Below are positions 11,259-30,687 of a stretch of DNA of 64,000 nucleotides, piece by piece. The translations under genes were made by a program, and so were the position numbers. The stretch's first letter is position 1, and each line of letters opens with the position of its first letter. A model generated the notes under the pieces. The model saw only the letters and a list, made by a program, of their open reading frames with translations. It made no database searches and was not told the origin of the DNA. The stretch is from Catenulispora sp. EB89 (GTDB lineage: Bacteria > Actinomycetota > Actinomycetes > Streptomycetales > Catenulisporaceae). The DNA lies in NCBI RefSeq assembly GCF_041261445.1, contig NZ_JBGCCU010000010.1:62001-126000 (forward strand). The letters run 5' to 3'.

Positions 11259-11657
11259 GTGACCTTCCGGCTCACGCCCGAGCAGATCTGCCGCGTGAAC
11301 CAGGTCTGCGGGGGCGACGGCGTCCCGCGCGACCCGGCGATACTGCCCGTCGTGCTCTCCGTCGCCTACGGCGTCGTGTGGTCGCCGCGCACCCGCGGCT
11401 GGGAGCTGGAGTACCCCGACCCGCTGGACCGGGCCGTGCACCTGGTCATAGACCTGATCCGGTACCGCACCTTCGCGACCTCGAACACCACCACCGCGAT
11501 CCGGGTCGCCGACGTCCTGCTGGCCGCCGACGGCATCGTGCTCACGCTGGACCCCGAGCACGCCGCCCTGTGGGCCGAGCAGTGCGCGCACGACCACATG
11601 CGCGCACCGGCGTGGATGAAGCAGTGGCTCTCGCCGTGGATCAAGCGGCCCGAGTAG
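11259..11657 (+). CDS. Doc/Fic-like protein, possible toxin
   Basis: A 132-residue protein. Its middle part, FATSNTTTAIRVADVLLAAD, can be laid over the Doc/Fic active-site segment (HPFxxGNKRTA followed by a helix), keeping the Asn-Thr-x-x-Ala pattern and the hydrophobic helix. The catalytic His and the Gly of the motif are not present, so it is either a degenerate member or only a look-alike. Proteins of this size annotated as Fic-family toxin components occur in streptomycetes next to small partners. The N-terminus (MTFRLTPEQICRVNQVCGGD) resembles the substrate-flap start of Doc proteins. It is cotranscribed with the small acidic protein before it. Confidence 0.5.
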   Translation: MTFRLTPEQICRVNQVCGGDGVPRDPAILPVVLSVAYGVVWSPRTRGWELEYPDPLDRAVHLVIDLIRYRTFATSNTTTAIRVADVLLAADGIVLTLDPEHAALWAEQCAHDHMRAPAWMKQWLSPWIKRPE

Positions 11658-24770: not shown

Positions 24771-24802
24771 GTAAGCGATCTGTAAGCGCCCTCCCGTAGC
24801 GT
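24771..24802 (+). promoter_or_regulatory. SARP-type promoter: 11-bp direct repeats of GTAAGCG with -10 element
   Basis: GTAAGCG at 24771-24777 and again at 24782-24788 (11-bp pitch, one helical turn). Eight bases on is a -10-like TAGCGT (24797-24802). This is the known layout of SARP/AfsR binding sites (family knowledge). The same arrangement recurs at 27886-27917. Confidence 0.8.
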
Positions 24803-24879
24803 CCGAACCGTGGTCTGTGCACGGGGCAGACCACATCTTTGCGTACGCCCTGACACCAGGCTTATGACAAACTGCGGTC

Positions 24880-27813
24880 GTGAGGGTGTACTTCGGCGTG
24901 CTCGGGCCGCTGCGGGTCGAGGTCGAGGTTGAAAACGGCGGCGGGCAGCACTCTGCCGCGGGTCCCGAGCGCCTGCCGCGATCGCCGGTGCTCAAGGGCC
25001 TGCTCGGGGTCCTGCTGCTGGCCGAGGGGCAGCGGCTCAGTGCCGGGCGGCTGCTGGACCTGGTCTGGGCCGACCAGGCCACGCAGGTCGGGCTCGGCGC
25101 GCTGCAGACCGGGGTCTCCCGCCTGCGGAGCTGGCTCGGGACGTTCGAGGACCCTGGCCTCGTCCTGGACTTCGACGGCAGCGGCTACAGTCTGCGCCTG
25201 CCTCCCGAGGCGGTCGACCTCGGCCGGTTCCGGCGGGCGGTGGCGCGCGGGGACCTCAACGCTGCGGTCGCGCTCCGGCGCGGGCCGGTGTTCGCCGACG
25301 CGGTGCGGGTGAGCCATACCGACCCACTGCTGCGCACCGTCGAGGAGGACGTCCGCGCCGCGGTGCTGGCCTGGGCCCAGGCGTCGCTCGCGGACGGGAG
25401 TCCGGAGGCCGCCCTGCCGCACCTGGACGCGCTGGCCCGGGACACCCCGCTCGACGAGCCGGTGCAGGCCGCGCGGATGCGGCTGCTGGCCGCCGACGGC
25501 CGGCCGGCCGAGGCGCTGCGGCTCTTCCAGGCGCTGCGGCAGCAGGTTGTCGACGAGCTCGGGGTGGAGCCCGGGGCCCAGGTGCGGGAGGCGTACTCCG
25601 AAGTCCTGGCCCTGGACGGCGACGTGCAGAACGTGGCGCCGCGGCCGCTCCCCGTCCCGGCCCAGCTGCCGCCCGACGCCGCGGCGTTCGTCGGGCGCGA
25701 GCGCGGGACGGTGCGGATCCGCCAGGCCCTGGCCGCCGGGCGCCTCCCGGTGATCGCCGGCATGGGCGGGATCGGCAAGACCGCGCTGGCCGTGCGCCTG
25801 GCCAACCAGGCCCGCGCCGACTTCCCCGACGGCCAGCTCTACGTCGACCTGCGCGGAGCCGGCACCGACCCCGCCGACCCGGGCCTGGTCCTGAGCGGGT
25901 TCCTGCGCGCGCTCGGGGTCGAGCCCGGGCAGATCCCGGAGACGCCGGTCGACCGCTCCGCGCTCTACCGCAGCGTCCTGTCCGGCCGTCGGATCCTGGT
26001 CGTCCTGGACAACGCCGCCGACGAGCAGCAGGTCCGGCCGCTGCTGCCCGGCGCGGCGGGCGCGGCCGGCTCGTCGGGTGCCGCGGCGCTCGTGACCAGC
26101 CGTACCGCGCTCACCGCCCTGGACAACTCAGAGCTCGTCGACCTGTCCGTACTGTCCCCGGCCTCGGCGCTGGCGCTGCTGGAACGGCTGGTCGGTGCCG
26201 AGCGGGTGGCCGCCGAACCCGAGGCCGCCGCCGAGATCCTGCGCGCCTGCGACCACATCCCGCTCGCGGTCCGGGTGGTCGGGGCCCGGCTCGCCGGCCG
26301 GCCGCGCTGGAGCCTGGCCCGGATGGCCGCGCTGGTCCGCGACGAGCGGGACCGGCTGGACCAGCTACAGGTCGGCGACCTGGCGATCCGGGCCAGCTTC
26401 GGGCTCAGCTACGACCGGCTGCCGGCGCCGGCGCGCCGGCTGTTCCGGCTCCTGGGCCTGCTCGACGTCCCCGACTTCGCCTCCTGGGCCGCCGCCGCGG
26501 TCGCCGACCTCGGGCTCGACGAGGCCGAGCGGCACCTGGAGTCGCTGGTCGACGCCCACCTGCTGGAGGTCGCCGGCGTCGAACCGCGGCTGCGCTACCG
26601 GTTCCACGACCTGGTCCGCCTCTACGCCCGCGAGCAGTCCGACGCCGAGGACGGCGCCGCGTACCAGCTGGCCGCCGTGGTCCGCGCGGTCGGCGGCTGG
26701 CTGTGGTTCGCCGAGCGGGCCGCCGACCGGATCCCAGGACCCTGTTACGCCCCGATCCACGGCTCCGCCCCGCGCCGGCCGTTTCCCGGCGTGTCCGGCG
26801 CGCTCCTGGCCGACTCGCTGGCCTGGTTCGACACCGAGCGGCCGGCGCTGCTGGCGATCACCCGGCAGGCCTGCGCGCTGAACCTGGTGTCGGCGGCGTG
26901 GGACCTGGCGGCCTGCCAGGAGAAGCACAACGACGTCCGTGGGTTCTACGACGAGTGGCAGACCGTCGACCTCGCGGTCCGCGAACTGTGCCGGGCGGCC
27001 GGCGACCGGCTCGGCGCGGCCGTGCTGACCCGCGGCCTGATCGAGGTGACGACCTGGACCGGGCCCGACGACGGCAGCCAGACCATGGTCGTCCTGCACG
27101 AGCGGGCCATGCGGCTGTTCGCGGAGTTCGAGGCGCTCGGCGTCGACCGCGGCGCCGCCGACGCCCTGGTGATGGCGGCCTGGAGTCTGGTCGCCCAGGG
27201 CCGGCTGCCGGAAGCGCTGGCCGTGGCGGGGGACGCCCTGGCCCGCGCGGAGAAGAGCGAGCACCCCGGCGGCCGGGCGCGCGCCCACCAGATCATCGCG
27301 ATCGCGCGCAGCGAGGACGACGACCTCGGCCTGGCCATCGAGCATCTGTCGCAGGCCCTGGAGATCGCCAGGGCTCTGGGTAACACCCGCTTCGAGGCCG
27401 CTGCGGCCCAGTTCCTCGGCGCGGCCTACTGCCGCGTCGGCGACGGCGAGCGCGGCGAGGACCTGCTGATCCGCGCGATGGTGATGGCCCGGGCCTTCGA
27501 CGACCGCTACACCGAGACCTTCTCCCTGCTGTACCTGGCGAAGTACTACGCGGCGATCGGCGATTCGCGGGCCAGGGCGGCCGTGGAGACCGCCGAAGCG
27601 ATCAGCCGCCGCAACAAGATGAGCCACCATCTCGCCGACGCGCTGCTCGTCCTGGGCCGCCTTGATCTGGCGGCCGGCGATCCGGTCGCGGCCGTGGCGC
27701 ACCTGGAGGAGTCCGTCGAGCTGTGGCGGCGGCGCGGCTGGGGATCGTTCCTCGCCGAGGCGCAGGAAGCGCTCGAGACCGCTCGCGCCGCGGCCGCCAC
27801 CACAGCCGGCTGA
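24880..27813 (+). CDS. SARP/AfsR-type regulator with ATPase and TPR domains
   Basis: A 977-residue transcriptional activator of the AfsR build. Residues 1-108 are an OmpR-like winged helix; 110-250 are the bacterial transcriptional activator domain (GRPAEALRLFQALRQQVVDE and LGVEPGAQVREAYSEVLA). An NB-ARC-type ATPase follows, with Walker A GMGGIGKT at 294-301 and Walker B RILVVLDNAAD at 371-381. The C-terminal half is tetratricopeptide-like helices for signal or partner binding. Start GTG 24880 has no strong ribosome binding site. The 11-bp direct repeats upstream suggest autoactivation; the same repeats precede the next gene, its likely target. Confidence 0.93.
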   Translation: MRVYFGVLGPLRVEVEVENGGGQHSAAGPERLPRSPVLKGLLGVLLLAEGQRLSAGRLLDLVWADQATQVGLGALQTGVSRLRSWLGTFEDPGLVLDFDGSGYSLRLPPEAVDLGRFRRAVARGDLNAAVALRRGPVFADAVRVSHTDPLLRTVEEDVRAAVLAWAQASLADGSPEAALPHLDALARDTPLDEPVQAARMRLLAADGRPAEALRLFQALRQQVVDELGVEPGAQVREAYSEVLALDGDVQNVAPRPLPVPAQLPPDAAAFVGRERGTVRIRQALAAGRLPVIAGMGGIGKTALAVRLANQARADFPDGQLYVDLRGAGTDPADPGLVLSGFLRALGVEPGQIPETPVDRSALYRSVLSGRRILVVLDNAADEQQVRPLLPGAAGAAGSSGAAALVTSRTALTALDNSELVDLSVLSPASALALLERLVGAERVAAEPEAAAEILRACDHIPLAVRVVGARLAGRPRWSLARMAALVRDERDRLDQLQVGDLAIRASFGLSYDRLPAPARRLFRLLGLLDVPDFASWAAAAVADLGLDEAERHLESLVDAHLLEVAGVEPRLRYRFHDLVRLYAREQSDAEDGAAYQLAAVVRAVGGWLWFAERAADRIPGPCYAPIHGSAPRRPFPGVSGALLADSLAWFDTERPALLAITRQACALNLVSAAWDLAACQEKHNDVRGFYDEWQTVDLAVRELCRAAGDRLGAAVLTRGLIEVTTWTGPDDGSQTMVVLHERAMRLFAEFEALGVDRGAADALVMAAWSLVAQGRLPEALAVAGDALARAEKSEHPGGRARAHQIIAIARSEDDDLGLAIEHLSQALEIARALGNTRFEAAAAQFLGAAYCRVGDGERGEDLLIRAMVMARAFDDRYTETFSLLYLAKYYAAIGDSRARAAVETAEAISRRNKMSHHLADALLVLGRLDLAAGDPVAAVAHLEESVELWRRRGWGSFLAEAQEALETARAAAATTAG

Positions 27814-27885
27814 GCCGCTGAAGTCGACGCCGAAGCCCTTGCGGCAGGCGCCGAAAGCACGCGGCACGCGCACCGTGGCCGATCA

Positions 27886-27917
27886 GTAAGCAATCCGTAA
27901 GCGCTTGTTCGTACTTT
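27886..27917 (+). promoter_or_regulatory. Second SARP-type promoter, upstream of the lytic fusion gene
   Basis: GTAAGCA at 27886-27892 and GTAAGCG at 27897-27903, again 11 bp apart, followed after exactly 8 bases by TACTTT (27912-27917). Layout and sequence match the site before the SARP gene. The start codon of the fusion gene is 62 bp further on. Confidence 0.82.
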
Positions 27918-27978
27918 GTCTTCAGGACCCTGCGGGGACAGGGTCCTGCCTGCTTGCGATGCCACCCGTAAGGAAGAC

Positions 27979-30513
27979 ATGAACAAGAACGGAAACCGGC
28001 GCGGATGGGCGCGGGCTCTGGGGTTGTGGCTGGCCGCCGCGCTCCTGGGCCTCGCGGCGCCGCTTCTCGCGCCGACCGCCGCCTCGGCCGACGGGCCGCC
28101 GACGGGTAACGAGAAACCCGTGCTCCTGCTGCACGGCTACGAGCTGTTCTCCGGCCCGGACTGCGGTGCGCAGGACATGTGGGGCCCGGCGATCGACCTG
28201 TTCCACCAGTGGGGGTGGAAGGGCCAGATCCACACCATGGCCTACTACACCAGCGACACGAACTGCACCGACCGGTTCGCCAGCGGCGACGGCACGCAGT
28301 CGATCAACGACCTGGGCCGCCAGCTCGCCTGGTACATCTACAACCACGACGCCGCGTGGGGCGGCGGCCAGGTGGCCGTCGTCGCGCACTCCATGGGCGG
28401 CCTGATCATCCGGGACGCGATCGGCGGGACCCGCACCCACCGCTCCGGCTACCCGCCGTCGATCCCGGTCGACAACGTGGTCACCCTCGGCACGCCGCAC
28501 CAGGGCACGCTCTGGGCGACCAGCCAGGAGTGCCGGGTCAGCCACGCGGCCAGCTGGAGCAACGAGTGCTTCCAGATGATCCCGGGCTCGGACTTCCTCA
28601 ACGGCCTGCCGGTGGACTCCGGCGAGGACACGAAGTGGGCCGCGATCGGCGCGGTCGAGGACGGGGTCGTCGGCGGCGACTCGGCGGTCGGCCTGTCGGT
28701 GGCCAGCCCGCAGATCCGCTTCGACGACAAGCAGAACCTGGGCCACAGCGAGCTGCACGACGGCGGCAACTCGCGCACCAGCGGCTGGACCGCGCAGTTC
28801 TCCTACGACGGCGGCCGGACCTGGAACGACCAGTACACCGGCTCGCCACTGCTGGAGGCGTTCCTCATGGCCCAGCGCGACCCGGGCAAGTTCACGCCCC
28901 CGCCGCCCCCGCCGCCGAACGACTGCAGCGCGCACGGCACGCCGACGTCCGCGGCCGCCGGCGCCGCGATCGCCGCGGCCTGCTCCCAGGAGAAGGCGGG
29001 GACCTGGTACACGTGGGGCGGCGGCCACGGCTCCGCACCCGGCCCCACCTACGGGATGGTCGACGCCACCGACCCGGTCCGCAGCAAGAACGACCCCTAC
29101 CGGATCGGCTTCGACTGCTCGGGCCTGGTGCGCTGGGCCTGGTCGCAGGCCGTCGGCTACGACGTCATGGGCGACAGCACCGCGGCCGGCATCTTCAGCA
29201 TGCCCGGTCAGCGGCTGGGCACCGACACCTCGGCGCTCCAGCCTGGCGACCTCGTGTTCTGGGGCGTCTCGAACGTGCACCACGTGGCCGTCTACCTCGG
29301 CGCCGGAAAGATCGTCGAGGCGCGGGAGTCGGACACGCACGTGATGGTGTCGGACCTGACCAGCCACGACATGTCCGACTACGCCGGCGGCCTGCGCTTC
29401 GCGGCCGGCGGCACCGGCGGCGGGAACCACATGACGTGGGGCTCGAACGTCAACGTGCGCTCGACGCCGTCGGTCGGCGGCTCGGTCGTCGTCAGCTTCC
29501 CGGGGCCGACACCGATCACCGTGGACTGCCAGAAGCACGCGGAGTCGGTGACCGCCGAGGGCGTCACCAACGACGTGTGGGCGCACCTGTCCGACTACAA
29601 CGGCTGGGTCTCCAACATCTACATCAAGGGCGGCTACTGGCTGGACGGCGTGCCCGACTGCGGCGGGAGCGGCGGCTCGGGCGAGCACTCGACGTGGGGG
29701 ACGAGTGTGAACGTCCGCTCCCAGCCGTCGGCCTCGGCCTCGGTGCTCACCTCCTTCGCCGGACCGACCGCGATCCACATCGACTGCCAGAAGCACGCCG
29801 AGTCGGTGACCGCGGCCGGTGTCACGAACGACGCCTGGGCGCACCTGCCCGACGTCAACGGCTGGGTGTCCAACATCTTCGTCAAGGGCGCGGCCTGGCT
29901 CGACGGCGTGCCGGACTGCGGCGGCGGCACCTCGGCCGGCTCCTACAGCTCCTGGGGCACGTTCGTGAACCTGCACGCGCACCCCTCCGCCGGGTCCGAC
30001 GTCAAGGCGACGCTGGCCGGGCCGACGACGGTCAAGATCGGCTGCCAGAAGCACGCCGAGTCGGTGACCGCCGAGGGCATCACCAACGACGCCTGGTCCT
30101 ACCTGCCGGACTACAAGGCCTGGGTGAGCAACATCTACATCAAGGGCGCGGCCTGGCTCGACGGGATCATGGACTGCACCAAGCCGCCGGCGCTCGACCC
30201 GGACACCGGCGGCGGCACCAGCACCGGCACCGACGGGCAGTGGAGCACCTGGGGGACGAACGTCAACCTGCACTCCCACCCCCGCACCGACAGCAGCACG
30301 GTCACCACGCTGGCCGGCCCGACGACGGTGCAGATCGGCTGCCAGAAGCACGCCGGCGCGGTGACGGCGGAGGGCGTCAGCAACGACGCCTGGTCGTACC
30401 TGCCGGCGTACAAGGCGTGGGTGAGCAACATCTACGTCAAGGGCGGGGCCTGGCTCGACGGGGTCATCGACTGCACCGTGCCGCCCGCGCTGGATCCCGA
30501 GACACAGACCTGA
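27979..30513 (+). CDS. Secreted lipase + NlpC/P60 peptidase + four SH3-like repeats fusion
   Basis: An 844-residue exported protein. The signal peptide is residues 1-38 (ALGLWLAAALLGLAAPLLAP). Residues about 45-300 form an alpha/beta-hydrolase of lipase type, with oxyanion start LLLHGYELF and nucleophile Ser138 in VVAHSMGGLI. A PPPPPPP linker (307-313) leads to an NlpC/P60 cell-wall peptidase domain (about 325-475), with Cys380 (GFDCSGLVRWAW) and His435 (VHHVAVYLG). Four related SH3-like modules of about 85-95 residues follow, each with a WGxxVNxxxxP start, a CQKHAESVTAEGV-type middle and a WVSNIYIKGxxWLDG end, with paired Cys. ATG 27979 follows AGGAAG. It is preceded by SARP-type repeats and lies directly downstream of the SARP gene. 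It probably attacks lipid and peptidoglycan outside the cell. Confidence 0.9.
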   Translation: MNKNGNRRGWARALGLWLAAALLGLAAPLLAPTAASADGPPTGNEKPVLLLHGYELFSGPDCGAQDMWGPAIDLFHQWGWKGQIHTMAYYTSDTNCTDRFASGDGTQSINDLGRQLAWYIYNHDAAWGGGQVAVVAHSMGGLIIRDAIGGTRTHRSGYPPSIPVDNVVTLGTPHQGTLWATSQECRVSHAASWSNECFQMIPGSDFLNGLPVDSGEDTKWAAIGAVEDGVVGGDSAVGLSVASPQIRFDDKQNLGHSELHDGGNSRTSGWTAQFSYDGGRTWNDQYTGSPLLEAFLMAQRDPGKFTPPPPPPPNDCSAHGTPTSAAAGAAIAAACSQEKAGTWYTWGGGHGSAPGPTYGMVDATDPVRSKNDPYRIGFDCSGLVRWAWSQAVGYDVMGDSTAAGIFSMPGQRLGTDTSALQPGDLVFWGVSNVHHVAVYLGAGKIVEARESDTHVMVSDLTSHDMSDYAGGLRFAAGGTGGGNHMTWGSNVNVRSTPSVGGSVVVSFPGPTPITVDCQKHAESVTAEGVTNDVWAHLSDYNGWVSNIYIKGGYWLDGVPDCGGSGGSGEHSTWGTSVNVRSQPSASASVLTSFAGPTAIHIDCQKHAESVTAAGVTNDAWAHLPDVNGWVSNIFVKGAAWLDGVPDCGGGTSAGSYSSWGTFVNLHAHPSAGSDVKATLAGPTTVKIGCQKHAESVTAEGITNDAWSYLPDYKAWVSNIYIKGAAWLDGIMDCTKPPALDPDTGGGTSTGTDGQWSTWGTNVNLHSHPRTDSSTVTTLAGPTTVQIGCQKHAGAVTAEGVSNDAWSYLPAYKAWVSNIYVKGGAWLDGVIDCTVPPALDPETQT

Positions 30514-30588: not shown

Positions 30589-30687
30589 ATGCGAAATCAC
30601 ATAAGCACCGCGGCGGCCTTGTCTGCTCCGAGGCCCCGAACGCGGCCTGTCCGCCCTACGGTCAGAGCCCGGGTCCGGTGCATTTGA
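30589..30687 (+). other. Short open frame with a good ribosome binding site
   Basis: ATG 30589 is preceded by TGAGGAGAATCCT (GAGGAG seven bases away) and opens a 32-codon frame, MRNHISTAAALSAPRP then Arg/Val/Pro-rich, ending RVRCI. It could be a leader or small basic peptide. No family is recognised, and chance cannot be excluded. Confidence 0.3.

Follow-up and report, generated by a model that had tools for sequence, protein, structure and literature searches.

The SARP gene and the secreted fusion gene

The window, by which we mean the whole stretch of 64,000 nucleotides of Catenulispora sp. EB89 DNA that was analysed, carries on its forward strand two adjoining genes, one for a large SARP regulator of 977 amino acids (24880..27813) and one for a secreted fusion protein of 844 amino acids counted from the ATG at 27979 (27979..30513). 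The regulator is made up of an OmpR-type wHTH, BTAD, NB-ARC and TPR (Pfam and alignment with AfsR), and the fusion of a signal-like N terminus (by eye), a DUF676/Lipase_2-type alpha/beta hydrolase, NlpC/P60 and SH3-like repeats (Pfam), so that both genes are what an earlier note on this DNA had taken them for.

The regulator has the domain order of the SARP family, an OmpR-type wHTH followed by a BTAD, the latter with E 1.3e-19 and above its cutoff. Trans_reg_C was found at E 4.8e-05 and 23.8 bits, under its cutoff of 26.2, and the SARP orthologue of genome G013 clears the Pfam cutoffs for both Trans_reg_C and BTAD. NB-ARC (NOD) and TPR follow the SARP domain, as in large SARPs of the AfsR type, and residues 5-951 of the 977 align with AfsR (PDB 8k60, E 2e-102). 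When AfsR residues 27 to about 712 were used as query against 54 locus sequences, the best match was L050 (53% over 707 columns) and the window SARP was absent from the best 15 of the 54, so it is not the closest match of AfsR; on this comparison of 54 sequences it is a paralogue of AfsR and not its orthologue. Excerpts of PMC10936776 describe two adjacent SARP protomers of AfsR, bound to 11-bp repeats that overlap the -35 and holding sigma region 4, and an inhibitory NOD/TPR part whose inhibition is lifted by ATP. With the contact residues and the list of highly conserved ones taken from these excerpts and mapped by hand, the window SARP shares 6 of the 12 DNA-contact residues of AfsR; the base-contacting T88 and R92 are both kept (T77 and R81 here), and 3 of the six contact residues termed highly conserved differ (AfsR Q48, P79 and K95 are V37, T68 and S84).

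The NlpC/P60 domain of the fusion protein was found with a Pfam E value of 2.4e-16 and aligns with RipA and relatives, its catalytic residues being read by eye, and the alpha/beta hydrolase exceeds two cutoffs (DUF676 29.4 vs 20.3, Lipase_2 21.9 vs 20.3), a domain match from which a lipase role is predicted. The fusion of C. rubra (L043), 91% identical over its full length, has a lipase-like N-terminal part as well; in G005 the NlpC/P60-SH3 part is joined to a cutinase-like N-terminal part, and an NlpC/P60-SH3 relative in Streptomyces acidiscabies gave no Pfam match ahead of NlpC/P60. This comparison of N-terminal parts took in L043, L044 and L046; further relatives of the fusion lie in S. niveiscabiei, G010 and G011. 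At the loci of the fusion relatives (L044-L048) the GTAAGC pair described below was found in no copy at 0-1 mismatches and in four at 2 mismatches (L044 has two of these, L045 and L046 a single one each). A SARP match was absent from L044-L047, and L048 (G011) has one of 31% about 9 kb away.

Downstream of the fusion gene, behind a GACTGACT-like repeat run, lies a 32-aa frame, MRNHISTAAALSAPRPRTRPVRPTVRARVRCI (window positions 30589-30687), which is kept in C. rubra (L043:12229) with a GTG start and is possibly a leader or a small protein.

A repeat box at three promoters

A motif scan found direct repeats 5' of both genes. Site A, in front of the SARP gene, has its two repeats at 24771..24788 (+) and, 8 bp 3' of the second repeat, the -10-like TAGCGT at 24797..24802 (+), so that the full layout (24771-24802) reads GTAAGCG-ATCT-GTAAGCG-CCCTCCCG-TAGCGT. 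Site B, in front of the fusion gene, has its repeats at 27886..27903 (+) and the -10-like TACTTT, again at 8 bp, at 27912..27917 (+), and reads GTAAGCA-ATCC-GTAAGCG-CTTGTTCG-TACTTT (27886-27917). The two sites are alike in their order of heptamer, 4 bp, heptamer, 8 bp and TANNNT, with a repeat pitch of 11 bp, and this common build is the one that the earlier note had described. Its reading as the established SARP layout agrees with the rule given in excerpts of PMC10936776, which is direct repeats 11 or 22 bp apart with the 3' repeat 8 bp from the -10; three promoters follow this rule, the third of which is treated below.

It is clear from a scan of the whole 11,900,167-bp genome that the box is rare. 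Exact GTAAGCN5GTAAGC occurs twice, at sites A and B, and not at all in a backward-read control, the composition-based expectation being 0.47 per genome for the repeats alone and 0.0015 when TANNNT is included; no crowd of unrelated matches with the 11-bp pitch and 8 bp to a -10 came up. When the full layout, which has 15 fixed bases, was allowed up to 2 mismatches at these, the genome still gave sites A and B only (control 0). For the bare 6-5-6 motif at up to 2 mismatches there were 207 matches vs 296 in the control, which is no better than chance. Within the window itself 3 matches at up to 2 mismatches were seen, a number reached by 12 of 100 shuffles, and the strength of the observation therefore lies in the exactness of the repeats and in the whole-genome scope.

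The genome is rich in SARP/NB-ARC relatives (83 matching stretches), and SARP-like ORFs with a minimum length of 200 aa, 59 in all, were found in 53 of 54 regions; removal of the C. rubra copy, of second occurrences of a gene and of ORFs that lay 300 nt or less from the end of a locus left 56. When the SARP layout was required, a convincing self site together with a copy at a neighbouring promoter was found, among the 54 regions, only in the window and at the corresponding locus of C. rubra. Among the paralogues, L058, L063, L076 and L079 have clear repeats of their own, and none of 10 paralogue repeats tested further had a convincing second promoter in its own locus. L071 and L074 were considered as further private codes and rejected, their words being GC-rich and the other copies unconvincing, and so was an enrichment of exact 11-bp repeats at the paralogues (11 of 56 have them at 11 bp, and over pitches of 7-20 bp the counts range from 6 to 21 of 56); a private repeat code as a general rule for the paralogues was not reached. 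As a separate observation, L076 has three TGACGT repeats at 11-bp pitch (about 11630-11652, -) before another SARP-like gene, and the genome has one other copy of this repeat, which lies between two reading frames that converge on it.

The earlier note had derived a single effector and a two-gene regulon from sites A and B, and this part of it is contradicted by a third promoter with the same repeats, present in the window genome (G000) and in C. rubra. The site was first seen in C. rubra (G008:C197:1356-1387), with 2 mismatches and just 5' of the gene for a 131-aa secreted protein. When 14 genomes of the family were scanned with up to 2 mismatches allowed, there were 16 matches vs 23 in the control, so that a single match means little; 4 of the 10 two-mismatch matches were fetched, plus those of G012 and G013, and among the 4 the match from C. 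rubra alone could be tied to the SARP system. In the window genome the site lies on a contig other than the window's (G000:C39:70729) and precedes a 140-aa secreted protein, the promoter being GAAAGCG-ATCT-GTAAGTG-CCCGCATA-CACACT-6 nt-ATG with 8 bp between box and -10; the C. rubra promoter is GAAAGCG-ATCT-GTAAGCG-CCCGCGAT-CACACT-6 nt-ATG. Compared in blocks of 10 bases, the two genomes match at 1 to 5 of 10 positions upstream of the box, and at 10 and 9 of 10 in the box blocks. The -10 is of the CANNNT type, as is that of afsS, CACTGT (PMC10936776, excerpts), and its short distance from the ATG suggests that the mRNA of the small protein is probably leaderless.

A protein search found orthologues of the small protein in 3 of 10 genomes of the genus, namely C. 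rubra, G000 (C39, 88%) and G005 (76%). The best SARP match of G005 is 45% identical, and its counterpart promoter, GACGGCG-ATTT-GAGGCCG-CCCGCGAT-CACACT-6 nt-ATG, is devoid of the box repeats: 7 of the 18 box positions differ from C. rubra and the next 14 bases are identical. The small protein gave no Pfam match, bears a weak resemblance to the fusion's SH3 repeats (E 0.007 in one BLASTP comparison) and could be modelled with low confidence only (mean pLDDT 45).

For the size of the regulon a degenerate pattern drawn from the known sites, GWAAGYRAWCYGTAAGYG-N8-YANNNT, was run against 14 genomes of the family, with up to 3 mismatches allowed. It gave 3 sites at 0 mismatches in G000, with none at 1-2 and one at 3, and 3 sites at 0 mismatches and no other in C. 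rubra, where "0 mismatches" holds partly by construction because the pattern was built from sites that it counts. Elsewhere there was one site at 0 mismatches in G012, one at 1 in G013 and one at 2 in G010, and no site at 0-2 mismatches in G005, G006, G007, G009 or G011; in total 9 of the 25 matches lay at 0-2 mismatches and 16 at 3, vs 5 control matches. The small dedicated regulon of the earlier note stands as to its smallness, with three sites at 0-2 mismatches in each of G000 and C. rubra, and falls as to its two genes. The site counts further suggest that this SARP controls no antibiotic cluster.

The G010 match (L139:9100, +) has GTTAGCG/GTAAGCG/GTTAGCG at 11-bp pitch before the gene of a secreted protein, ricin-B-like by eye, and a SARP match is absent from this locus. 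An order-wide scan at up to 1 mismatch gave matches in 12 of 391 genomes, with two per genome only in G000 and C. rubra; 8 of the 14 matches lay outside Catenulispora vs 7 control matches over the 391 genomes, which makes most of the outside matches probably due to chance. The matches in G207 and G384 lie in a common conserved stretch and may be real sites of another system. L148 and L149, from two genomes of another family of the order (f2), have GTAAGCGACTCGTAAGCA in common, also in a conserved stretch.

These counts bear on the alternative that weaker or differently spaced sites (22-bp pitch, degenerate) add many targets to the regulon, possibly including a biosynthetic cluster. We regard this as rather unlikely. 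In its favour, SARPs also use 22-bp repeats (PMC10936776, excerpts) and the window motif was scanned at 11-bp pitch, AfsR has several targets besides afsS (PMC4415409, excerpts), and genes for an FAD-binding protein (Pfam) and a methyltransferase-like protein (by eye) lie downstream in the window. The degenerate pattern, however, found no further site at 0-2 mismatches in G000 or C. rubra, and at the one-mismatch places of the bare motif, 7 of 8 of which fall within open frames of high GC3 and 120 codons or more, a TANNNT or CANNNT stood at the right distance in 0 of 8.

Conservation of the sites and of the leaders

In C. rubra (DSM 44948, G008) site A is identical and site B has one mismatch. 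At the SARP promoter the window genome and C. rubra have alignable sequence from about 6 bp before the first repeat to past the start codon; at the fusion promoter the alignment extends upstream of the box and the leader downstream is conserved too, so that the box is not distinct there. The self site is present on the SARP promoter in all three genomes that have the SARP or its DNA-binding part (G000, G008 and G013), and the fusion and small-protein promoters bear the box in two species only. In G013 the DNA-binding part has its orthologue (85% over residues 2-273) in a 290-aa ORF without NB-ARC/TPR (L137:9043-9915, -) beside a cyclophilin-like gene; the self site of this ORF is kept with one mismatch, and a fusion orthologue was not found in this genome. 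The 290-aa ORF is apparently a natural small SARP derived from a large one.

Both leaders in the window carry an inverted repeat near the expected 5' end of the mRNA, with 8-bp perfect arms in the SARP leader (24810..24834, +) and 10-bp perfect arms in the fusion leader (27923..27948, +). The two hairpins differ in sequence and both lie shortly 3' of the -10. The arms of the SARP-leader hairpin are kept in C. rubra and G013, with one arm base altered in G012, and one arm base of the fusion-leader hairpin is changed from C to T in C. rubra. In random 40-nt windows of the loci perfect inverted repeats turned up at rates of 142/20000 (8-bp arms) and 25/20000 (10-bp arms), low enough to make hairpins in 2 of 2 leaders notable, though they were seen after the fact. 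RNA folding gave z-scores of -1.41 and -2.72 for the two window leaders and -1.72 for that of G013, in which the hairpin is the centroid fold and not the best fold. The leader hairpins may stabilise the mRNA.

G012 has a self-type site, together with part of the leader, next to the corresponding cyclophilin gene (Pfam), and a SARP orthologue was looked for in this genome and not found. This remnant fits a lost SARP gene and also counts against a strict link between regulator and site, since a site without its SARP may have outlived the regulator or may serve another one. That the repeats are read by another regulator, either one of about 50 SARP-like paralogues or one of the PhoP type, and that the window SARP is itself a target, is in our view improbable. 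A global regulator of the PhoP type would be expected to have many more sites. The G012 site and the large number of relatives (83 stretches, 56 ORFs) speak for such a reader, as does the build of the PHO boxes, which are likewise two 11-nt direct repeats, and the sharing of promoters by AfsR and PhoP (PMC4415409, excerpts). Against it, the species with the SARP have 3 degenerate-pattern sites each and the five genomes without any at 0-2 mismatches also hold many related-protein candidates (49 to 107, at a first look), and SARP-less G005 is without the third site. It is very improbable indeed that one promoter was simply copied onto the other with no regulatory meaning, as the same order of parts and the adjoining genes might suggest, since outside the box and the -10 the two promoters differ, hairpin arms included, the third and unlinked promoter has the box, and the boxes are conserved in C. 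rubra.

A putative private regulon of an AfsR-type SARP

Judged from the sequences, it is quite likely that an AfsR-type SARP paralogue activates itself and two secreted-protein genes via a rare private box. In the course of events that we infer for gating, binding and activation, the NB-ARC/TPR part would, by analogy with AfsR, gate the activity of the SARP, and in the active state two adjacent SARP domains would occupy the pair of repeats that forms the box (consensus as in the pattern above), with a weak -10 (TANNNT or CANNNT) 8 bp further downstream, and would bring in the housekeeping RNA polymerase, again as in AfsR. The targets would be the SARP's own promoter, which would give positive feedback, the adjacent secreted lipase/NlpC-P60/SH3 fusion and the unlinked small secreted protein. 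What the SARP switches on would be a few secreted proteins, which probably act on the wall or on polymers, and not an antibiotic cluster.

Large actinobacterial genomes have dozens of large SARPs with mostly unknown targets. In Streptomyces coelicolor afsS adjoins afsR, and the small pathway-specific SARPs ActII-ORF4, DnrI and RedD are without NB-ARC/TPR and control antibiotic clusters. A lipase gene activated by a large ATP-binding regulator that is encoded next to it is found in Streptomyces (LipR/lipA), but LipR is a LuxR-type (LAL) regulator and the window regulator a SARP. EmbR of Mycobacterium has a link to cell-wall genes, and an FHA domain where the window SARP has NB-ARC/TPR. It aligns (2fez, 2ff4) with the SARP part over residues 2-243.

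AfsR/afsS resembles the present system in its large SARP with NOD/NB-ARC and TPR and in its 11-bp repeats 8 bp from a weak -10 (PMC10936776, excerpts), whereas the repeat sequence in the window differs and the place of the small regulator AfsS as target is putatively taken by the SARP gene itself and by genes of secreted proteins. ActII-ORF4, DnrI and RedD are alike in their direct repeats and the spacing to the -10 (PMC10936776, excerpts), but in the window genome no cluster is tied to the box. A SARP regulon of a lipase or of secreted NlpC proteins was not found in the open-licence PMC literature.

The SARP layout itself is already known, and the point of interest is the small, non-antibiotic regulon: large SARPs are usually read as antibiotic regulators, and here there are three promoters defined by their sequence, two of which belong to secreted proteins. 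G005, with the target gene present and the regulator and box absent, is a natural contrast, and together with the three-promoter set it makes the recognition code and the role of NB-ARC/TPR directly testable. As a tentative generalisation, which we hold possible though doubtful, the SARP-NB-ARC regulators of Catenulispora may not be mainly antibiotic switches; each may recognise a repeat code of its own and control a very small regulon that amplifies itself and that would in the present case consist of secreted wall-acting proteins, with unlinked targets that come and go with gain or loss of the 22-bp box. If this is true, loss of NB-ARC/TPR, as in G013, would yield a constitutive small SARP.
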